Notes under the pieces: model-generated
The model's input: the letters and a program-made list of their open reading frames with translations, nothing else
Databases searched by the model: none
What the model was told of the DNA's origin: nothing
Position numbers and translations under genes: made by a program
From: Paenibacillus polygoni
Lineage (GTDB): Bacteria > Bacillota > Bacilli > Paenibacillales > Paenibacillaceae
NCBI RefSeq assembly: GCF_030263935.1
Contig: NZ_CP127162.1
Coordinates: 4,049,501-4,113,500 of the forward strand
Length of the DNA: 64,000 nt
Direction of reading: 5' to 3'
In this document: positions 17,113 to 18,458 of the stretch, one piece after another
How positions within the stretch are numbered: position 1 is the first letter of the stretch
Layout: each line of letters starts with the position of its first letter

Positions 17113-17334
17113 TTGAAGGGTGACCACAAGAGCAAATTTTTGTTGACCCACCGTGAACGCGAAGTATTCGAGCTTCTGGTGCAGGACAAAACGACGCGTG
17201 ATATCGCGGGACTTCTTTTTATCAGCGAGAAAACGGTGCGCAATCATATTTCCAATGTGATGCAGAAACTCAATGTTAAGGGTCGTTCACAAGCGGTAGT
17301 AGAGTTAATTAAGCTAGGAGAATTAAAAATTTGA
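17113..17334 (+). CDS. gerE: spore germination/coat regulator GerE
   Basis: 73 residues, almost entirely a LuxR-type DNA-binding domain with LLTHREREVFELLVQDKTT, ISEKTVRNHISNVMQKL and GRSQAVVELIKLGEL; from memory it is very close to B. subtilis GerE (74 residues). GerE acts late in the mother cell with sigma-K, activating and repressing coat and outer-layer genes including cge genes. The start is TTG with an AGGAGGGG site seven bases before it. It has no operon partner. CgeB-like genes occur 22 kb away in this window. Confidence 0.96.
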   Translation: MKGDHKSKFLLTHREREVFELLVQDKTTRDIAGLLFISEKTVRNHISNVMQKLNVKGRSQAVVELIKLGELKI

Positions 17335-17847: not shown

Positions 17848-17920
17848 TGGCTCGGGACAGAATCGAACTGCCGACACTAGGATTTTCAGTCCTATGCTCT
17901 ACCGACTGAGCTACCGAGCC
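17848..17920 (-). tRNA. tRNA-Phe (GAA), copy 3 in transcription order
   Basis: 73 bases folding as a cloverleaf: acceptor stem GGCTCGG/CCGAGCC, discriminator A, anticodon loop CTGAAAA with anticodon GAA. CCA is not encoded. In the T-stem this copy has the GGCAG/CTGTC pairing where the other two have GGCGG/CCGTC, a compensated pair change that keeps the stem. Confidence 0.97.
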
Positions 17921-17935
17921 TTATTTATTTAGAGA

Positions 17936-18008
17936 TGGCTCGGGACGGGATCGAACCGCCGACACTAGGATTTTCAGTCCTATGCTCTACCGACTGAGCT
18001 ACCGAGCC
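17936..18008 (-). tRNA. tRNA-Phe (GAA), copy 2
   Basis: 73-base cloverleaf with anticodon GAA and the same arms as its neighbours. It differs from copy 1 by one base in the T-loop. A 15-base AT-rich spacer separates it from copy 3 and a 16-base spacer from copy 1, so the three are surely one transcript. Confidence 0.97.
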
Positions 18009-18024
18009 TTATTTTATTTAGAGA

Positions 18025-18097
18025 TGGCTCGGGACGGAATCGAACCGCCGACACTAGGATTTTCAGTCCTATGCTCTACCGACTGAGCTACCGAGCC
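18025..18097 (-). tRNA. tRNA-Phe (GAA), copy 1
   Basis: 73-base cloverleaf with anticodon GAA, first in the direction of transcription. It begins about 54 bases after the U-tract of the T-box terminator. Acceptor, D, anticodon and T arms are all complete, so this appears functional. Confidence 0.97.
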
Positions 18098-18113
18098 TTA
18101 TTTTTAATAGATT

Positions 18114-18143
18114 ACTATAAATGGAACCCTGTGATATCGTAAA
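18114..18143 (-). promoter_or_regulatory. candidate tRNA-Phe promoter
   Basis: On the minus strand TTTACG and TATAGT stand 18 bases apart, with the -10 element 17 bases before the first tRNA. This would let the tRNAs be transcribed independently of the T-box. The -35 element is weak. Confidence 0.45.
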
Positions 18144-18151
18144 TGGAATAC

Positions 18152-18423
18152 AAAAAAGCCCCTCATCCAAAGGGACGAGGAGCCGCGGTACCACCCTATA
18201 TTAGAGCCTTCTTGACTAACAAAGAAGAACGCTCTCACTTTAATGAATAACGGTTAAACCGGTACACCTCTACTTGCCATGGAATGGTTTCAAGGGACAG
18301 CTCCGGAGCGAACTTCATTCAAACCATTACCTTAGAAACGCTCTCAATCTTCGGCGTTTCCTCCCTGTGAGCTGGTATTTGAATTACTTTTCTCCTTCAA
18401 AGCTTTTAGATCGCTATGTAATT
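18152..18423 (-). promoter_or_regulatory. T-box riboswitch with phenylalanine specifier
   Basis: The minus strand carries a full T-box leader. The conserved T-box sequence AGGGTGGTACCGCGG lies at 18183-18197, followed by a terminator stem (CCTCGTCC/GGATGAGG) and six T at 18152-18157. Stem I shows AGTA of the specifier loop (18385-18388), opposed by GAAGTTCG. By analogy with glyQS (GAA-A-GGC-A) the specifier is TTC, phenylalanine, at 18310-18312. The acceptor-binding bases TGGT match the ACCA end of tRNA-Phe. T-boxes normally precede synthetase or amino acid genes. Here the next genes on that strand are three tRNA-Phe genes, and no protein gene follows on that strand within the window before the rpiR-nagBA operon. 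Confidence 0.9.
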
Positions 18424-18429
18424 TTCCTT

Positions 18430-18458
18430 ATTATGATGTAATAACTATTTAAAGTCAA
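18430..18458 (-). promoter_or_regulatory. promoter of the T-box leader
   Basis: TTGACT and CATAAT on the minus strand, spaced by exactly 17 bases, close to the sigma-A consensus. Transcription would start near 18423, giving a leader of about 270 bases. Confidence 0.75.

Follow-up and report, generated by a model that had tools for sequence, protein, structure and literature searches.

T-boxes are known as regulators of protein genes that respond to the charging state of a tRNA. The locus described here raises the question of why such a leader should stand directly before genes for the tRNA that it is built to recognise, and what it would do there. It lies in a stretch of 64,000 nucleotides from Paenibacillus polygoni (the window; G000:C1:4049501-4113500), part of a genome, our G000, that consists of one contig of 4,939,088 bases and is 99.94% complete. 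Three tandem tRNA-Phe genes are preceded in this window by a full-length phenylalanine T-box leader, all on the minus strand; positions below are those of the window unless a contig is named.

A preliminary description of the window had proposed a leader with every T-box element, a UUC specifier, acceptor-binding bases complementary to tRNA-Phe and three tRNA-Phe genes 54 bases beyond the terminator on the same strand, and all of this was borne out. The leader (18168..18409) matches the Rfam family RF00230 at 18409-18168 over the full length of the model (positions 1-219), scoring 109.8 bits (E 2.2e-23) where the gathering score is 93, and could be aligned with 11 homologues. The covariance-model alignment sets GAA-G-UUC-G opposite the consensus specifier, which gives UUC (Phe) and no other codon (18310..18312, within GAAGUUCGC); this matches the GAA anticodon of the host tRNA-Phe, which was found in this genome in the leader's own operon only. 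A UGGU bulge (18190..18193), identified from the sequence and the same alignment, is complementary to A73-CCA of tRNA-Phe, where the CCA is unencoded and its addition assumed. The specifier TTC and the bulge are invariant in 12/12 aligned leaders. The intrinsic terminator (18152..18184), found by terminator scan and folding, has a 12-pair stem (18184-18157) and, up to 18152, a T6 tract (-20.7 kcal/mol); the leader stretch holds 3 terminator-like sites, against 1.0 in shuffles. As the terminator and the antiterminator of the alignment share one strand, the two structures would be mutually exclusive. A spacer of 54 nt (18098..18151) then leads to the first tRNA gene.

The three tRNA genes, at 18025..18097, 17936..18008 and 17848..17920, were recognised by Rfam, ARAGORN and reading of their stems. 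All have the anticodon GAA, a U27-A43 pair and no encoded CCA, and the third has one changed T-arm pair. The downstream target is thus three tRNA-Phe genes and not an amino-acid-related protein gene, by which a T-box regulon is usually recognised; the next minus-strand open reading frame of at least 100 aa, at 16828-15971, encodes an HTH/SIS regulator. Rfam gave 112 tRNA matches in the genome (150 of 324 first-look candidates scored), and ARAGORN, run on stretches covering all 112, called 110 tRNA genes, among which tRNA-Phe is represented by the three window copies. BLAST with tRNA-Phe found 3 places at 97-100%, the next six being at 75%. No tRNA-Phe beyond these three was found in the assembly; a further copy could conceivably be carried by a plasmid outside it. 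Two tRNA clusters of this genome (L091 and L092) have tRNA-Asp and tRNA-Thr 50 nt apart with no tRNA in between, clusters of the same genus (e.g. L038, L040 and L055) are ordered Asp-Phe-Thr, and in the sister genome G018 a cluster at a contig start (L232) reads Phe-Thr after the end of an Asp gene. The simplest reading would be that the ordinary tRNA-Phe copy was lost in the P. polygoni lineage.

A few observations concern the neighbourhood of the array. A 10-bp inverted repeat, CCGTTGGAAA...TTTCCAACGG, lies 3' of the third tRNA gene (17831-17699, minus strand). A 130 nt part of this segment is 89% alike in G018, where the arm adjoining the tRNA is unaligned. The segment was rejected as a structured RNA (z -1.49, 20/200 shuffles fold as well, no Rfam match). 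On the plus strand, 17113-17334 may encode a LuxR-type DNA-binding domain (GerE) on its own, 73 aa long and lacking both receiver and sensor. What looked like an insertion in the second tRNA gene of G018 is a run of N.

We next considered the origin of the leader. With E at most 0.001, the genome shows 24 T-box matches, of which 13 exceed the Rfam cut-off. A match below the cut-off (85.6 bits, C1:1476088-1476398) stands before pheS, at about 1.476 Mb, confirmed by Pfam domains PF01409 and PF02912; the 814-aa frame that follows, still open where the fetched stretch stops, is read as pheT. The earlier statement that no pheST is near needs a small correction, as pheS and a pheT-like frame are present elsewhere in the genome. 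The pheS leader, like that of the window, belongs to RF00230 and has its UUC specifier in GAAGUUCGC, the specifier region GAAGTTCGCTCCGGAGC being common to both; it differs in preceding a protein gene and in its descent. As pheS has a Phe T-box of its own, the window leader is a second Phe leader. Stem I of the pheS leader is 80% identical to that of the tRNA-linked leader of G343, a relative. In a FastTree phylogeny, 12 tRNA-linked leaders group together to the exclusion of 21 pheS leaders, with a local support of 0.999 (the pheS rows are 28 loci minus 5 unorientable by motif and 2 without a T-box core within 400 nt). The suggestion that pheST had been lost from this place, leaving an orphan leader, was thus rejected: pheS and the pheT-like frame stand behind their own T-box, and the leaders linked to tRNA genes have a descent of their own.

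The comparison of gene order in relatives that the preliminary description had called for showed how widely the arrangement occurs. A pattern search of the family genomes, in its wider version, found it in 7/394. As this search misses carriers with other spacing or sequence, the leader of G343 was used in a similarity search of the same 394 genomes, with two candidates scored per genome, so that a third copy could escape. Some match was found in 269/394, and at least 15/394 carry the leader lineage (a match of at least 130 bits, among the matches listed), the other listed matches reaching at most 124 bits and being mostly Stem I alone. tRNA-Phe follows directly in 10 of the 15 (G343, G263, G252, G251, G043, G396, G018, G000, G005 and G391). 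In one more (G210) it lies about 1.1 kb on, past a transposase, and in four (G273, G351, G311 and G257) no tRNA was found behind the leader within the fetched locus. A scan with one genome per species yielded 38 stretches (19 examined with Rfam, 26 with ARAGORN, the rest by reading) and added four carriers: P. eucommiae (L131), P. contaminans (L138), a Paenibacillus MAG (L125) and P. hemerocallicola (L143), the tRNA of the last being cut off by the contig end. Three other loci of the scan, from Paenibacillus sp. An7 (L117), Marseille-Q4541 (L120) and P. baekrokdamisoli (L145), correspond to G018, G043 and G343. Over the loci examined, the tRNA array comprises from 1 to 6 genes.

The 12 leaders, from several genera, align end to end with a mean column identity of 83%; TTC, GGGTGGTACC, UGGU, AAGTA (Stem I) and CCGTTA (Stem III) are invariant. 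Covariation gives weak support to the T-box fold in this alignment: according to RNAalifold, 13/59 predicted pairs show, in one or more sequences, a change on both sides that keeps the pairing, the covariation term amounts to -1.84 kcal/mol and the consensus is only partly the T-box fold. In the 12 further tRNA-bearing loci whose leader is not a mere fragment, the leader is 77-99% identical to that of the window, versus 24-92% for the spacer, which argues that leader and tRNA are not together by chance. Flanking genes are clearly common to close relatives only, and since they differ between genera, either the locus has changed place or the genes around it have been rearranged. Phages yielded no match to the leader, and the leader-tRNA pattern gave 0 hits in viral contigs; in plasmids 128 records have some match, none covering 80% of the query, and the 10 listed of these 128 start at query positions 379-384, that is, in the tRNA part.

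The Rfam cut-off is passed by the leader in 12/14 loci with tRNA-Phe directly behind (the 10 family genomes plus L131, L138, L125 and L143). The two below it are G005, without the 5' part of Stem I, and G391, without Stem I, and in both the tRNA genes therefore persist without a working switch. Among the four leaders without a nearby tRNA, one (G273) passes; the core is changed (ACCGAG) in G351, the terminator is lost in G257, and the G311 leader falls below the cut-off yet keeps specifier, T-box core and terminator stem. The transposase-interrupted G210 leader passes. This pattern fits a history of gain and loss in which the leader would decay once uncoupled from the tRNA, although few loci are involved and two leaders decayed while tRNA genes remained behind them.

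Two further observations on these loci may be recorded here. In G210 an IS30-family transposase (L260:400-1416, minus strand) splits the T-box from the tRNA-Phe, a natural uncoupling of switch and target. In P. contaminans (L138), the spacer between terminator and tRNA-Phe holds an apparent remnant of the 3' half of a tRNA-Phe gene, pointing to a larger former array.

We consider it likely that the leader is a transcription-attenuating Phe T-box whose target is the tRNA-Phe operon, so that uncharged tRNA-Phe would antiterminate its own genes. The observations that speak for this are the anatomy of the leader, its position before the sole tRNA-Phe genes of the assembly, its conservation, its separate lineage and the lack of a conserved internal promoter. 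The larger share of leaders above the Rfam cut-off where tRNA-Phe lies directly behind, and the distinct tRNA lineage described below, point the same way. The truncated leaders of G005 and G391, the leaders kept without a tRNA in G273 and G311, the weak covariation and a promoter-like site in the P. polygoni spacer count against it. The lack of a conserved internal promoter bears on an alternative in which tRNA-Phe would be transcribed mainly from a promoter of its own in the spacer, the T-box being a relic, or a minor input, from a Phe T-box that landed upstream. Promoters were scanned in 13 homologous loci with a sigma-A matrix of approximate weights and 200 shuffles. Before the leader, a candidate TTGACT-17-CATAAT (18430..18458, minus strand) has 10/12 consensus matches (p=0.07 versus shuffles). 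The P. polygoni leader stretch has 5 promoter-like sites, no excess over the shuffle mean of 4.7, and the weight of this candidate comes from its conservation across loci: a TTGAC-type -35 with 17-nt spacing is found at the corresponding place in 12/13, with p at or below 0.03 in 9 loci, 0.07-0.09 in 3 (P. polygoni included) and 0.38 in the truncated G005.

The spacers, of 19-62 nt, gave a different picture. The P. polygoni spacer contains a site, TTTACG-18-TATAGT (18143-18114), that matches the consensus at 9/12 positions and ends 16 nt before the first tRNA gene, and the broken leaders tolerated upstream of tRNA-Phe in G005 and G391 would also be expected if a spacer promoter did the work. 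However, no spacer of the 13 loci has a promoter that beats shuffles at p<0.05, the lowest values being 0.09 (G005) and 0.13 (P. polygoni); the counterpart of the P. polygoni site scores lower in the sister G018; and in 12 loci, outside that sister, spacers are only 0.24-0.69 identical to that of P. polygoni, whereas specifier and core are invariant in 12 leaders. The separate weak promoter before the tRNAs that had been suggested earlier is thus unconserved, and a weak site particular to P. polygoni is conceivable; as the main source of tRNA-Phe, a spacer promoter appears unlikely.

Still less credit can be given to the idea that the leader is a fixed attenuator, setting the dosage of tRNA-Phe without physiological sensing of charging. 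A terminator with basal read-through would alone suffice to set output, and array sizes do vary from 1 to 6, but the invariance of specifier, UGGU, AAGTA and CCGTTA over 12 leaders from several genera goes beyond the needs of an attenuator, and we regard this explanation as quite improbable.

The T-box-linked tRNA-Phe are also, for the most part, a distinct isodecoder. Position 27-43 is U-A in 27, U-G in 1 and A-U in 1 of the 29 tRNA-Phe genes of T-box-bearing loci (a set that includes one gene cut by N and the G210 gene behind the transposase, the linked genes of G005 and G436 being unmatched by the pattern). Of the remaining tRNA-Phe genes 24 were read, and there it is G-C in 23 and A-U in 1 (G253). 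Pair 27-43 can matter for recognition by PheRS, as work in E. coli indicates. Encoded CCA is absent from most linked copies, the exceptions being in G343, G434, G396 and G391. The other typed tRNA-Phe of the family make the same product, tRNA-Phe GAA, from mixed tRNA clusters, and differ from the linked copies in their G27-C43 pair (23/24) and in adjoining tRNA-Asp, tRNA-Thr or tRNA-Tyr, in several relatives beside rRNA genes; none was found in P. polygoni. The closed genomes G251, G252, G263 and G343 each have two further tRNA-Phe genes, of which the typed ones (two of G251, one each of G252 and G263) sit in mixed clusters adjoining tRNA-Asp, and G005 and G018 have one cluster-linked tRNA-Phe each. 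P. polygoni seems to run on the T-box-linked isodecoder alone; G043 was dismissed as a second such genome, its draft yielding just 27 tRNA matches, which makes the absence uninformative. It is barely credible that the linked copies are signalling molecules that amplify the uncharged-tRNA signal to other Phe T-boxes and do not serve translation, as their consistently different 27-43 pair and the ordinary copies also present in several carriers might suggest, since the sole tRNA-Phe found in P. polygoni must serve translation there.

Control of the tRNA-Phe operon by its own uncharged product could operate as follows. RNA polymerase would initiate at the leader promoter, and the nascent leader would bind tRNA-Phe via the UUC specifier. 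An uncharged tRNA would pair with UGGU through its NCCA end, so that the antiterminator would form and transcription would continue into the three tRNA-Phe genes; with a charged tRNA, it is the terminator that would form. As no other tRNA-Phe gene was found in P. polygoni, the ligand there would be the operon's own earlier product, closing an autoregulatory loop that would need no dedicated protein regulator. Charged tRNA would limit, and uncharged tRNA promote, further synthesis of tRNA-Phe, and falling charging would raise both tRNA-Phe and, with the help of the pheS T-box, its synthetase, with a possible effect on growth. That uncharged tRNA-Phe boosts transcription of tRNA-Phe had been one of two options proposed at the outset, and it is the best-supported reading; the positive loop that was part of that proposal is what we infer from it. 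An argument against it is that the loop is in principle counter-homeostatic for the amount of tRNA, because scarce tRNA is more fully charged. As an illustration, and not as evidence, a toy model of the loop reached the same end state from two starts in 150/150 random parameter sets, and at a tenfold drop in charging its rise in tRNA was a median 1.87-fold larger than with constitutive supply. The model suggests that bistability is not inevitable when such a tRNA loop acts together with a T-box that controls PheRS.

Judged by comparison of genomes, the arrangement is real, conserved and recurrent, and it gives a familiar riboswitch family a target of a new kind. A T-box placed before the genes of its own tRNA makes the ligand the product, a topology that we know for no other riboswitch. 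The T-box-linked operon is apparently the sole route to an essential tRNA in P. polygoni, and the seemingly complete dependence of this tRNA on a T-box makes it testable how charging, in place of the growth-rate control of rRNA-linked promoters, can set the abundance of a tRNA, and how such a circuit avoids collapse or runaway. It also offers a case of an ordinary tRNA gene gone from its usual clusters while a riboswitch-linked paralogue remains.

The T-boxes of synthetase, biosynthesis and transport genes (Wels 2008, PMC2494555; TBDB, PMC7778990) share the ligand class and the antitermination logic, and in the portions of these two sources available to us the targets described are protein genes, versus tRNA genes here. 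TBDB entry pages are described in the accessible part of PMC7778990 as giving the annotation of the downstream protein, so that tRNA targets could go unseen; target lists for T-boxes may lack entries where they were compiled from the annotation of proteins. A T-box before tRNA genes is not reported in the literature searched, which included the available portions of PMC2494555, PMC7778990, PMC7583486 and PMC5670726; the 2008 RNA and 2009 MMBR surveys lay outside this search, and a prior mention is possible.

A second case was found with another amino acid. Nine loci of Bacilli/Erysipelotrichaceae MAGs (L111, L112, L116, L118, L122, L130, L133, L140 and L142) have a T-box followed by two tandem tRNA-Asn genes. 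As in the window, the T-box stands directly 5' of tandem tRNA genes cognate to its specifier, here AAC (by covariance-model alignment in L111, by eye in the others), with a UGGC bulge, or UGGU in L130. The T-box is above the Rfam cut-off in 7/9, L112 having 86.6 bits and L133 91.5 bits. Unlike in the window, the first tRNA gene begins 14-20 nt past the T-box match in 9/9, and protein genes follow on the same strand: by reading, the next open reading frame is gatC-like in 8/9 and asnS in L111. HMM searches identified GatC, an amidase and GatB in L116 and an asparagine-tRNA ligase in L111. The authors of PMC2494555 state that they did not find T-boxes in front of the amidotransferase genes under consideration there. 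L116 differs further in its terminators, with a weak terminator-like site (5 pairs, mixed tail) overlapping the end of the T-box and a better one (8 pairs, T5) after the tRNAs. In 7/9 of these MAGs, one to three other, untyped places resemble the query at 78-90% along some or the whole of its length, and further tRNA-Asn genes may exist. We think it probable that T-boxes also regulate the supply of tRNA, since leaders precede the genes of the cognate tRNA in no fewer than two unrelated settings, with Phe in Paenibacillaceae and with Asn in uncultured Bacilli, and that in P. polygoni the whole tRNA-Phe pool would be held in a closed loop, through binding to the nascent leader, with the usual supply from clusters displaced.

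A locus of Ruminococcus flavefaciens (L134:2721-3114) has a T-box of 92.5 bits (cut-off 93) followed by a tRNA-like gene of 111 nt, about 40 nt too long, which scores 50.5 bits and is not called by ARAGORN. By eye, its anticodon loop looks like that of Lys UUU, and a further locus, L148, looks alike.
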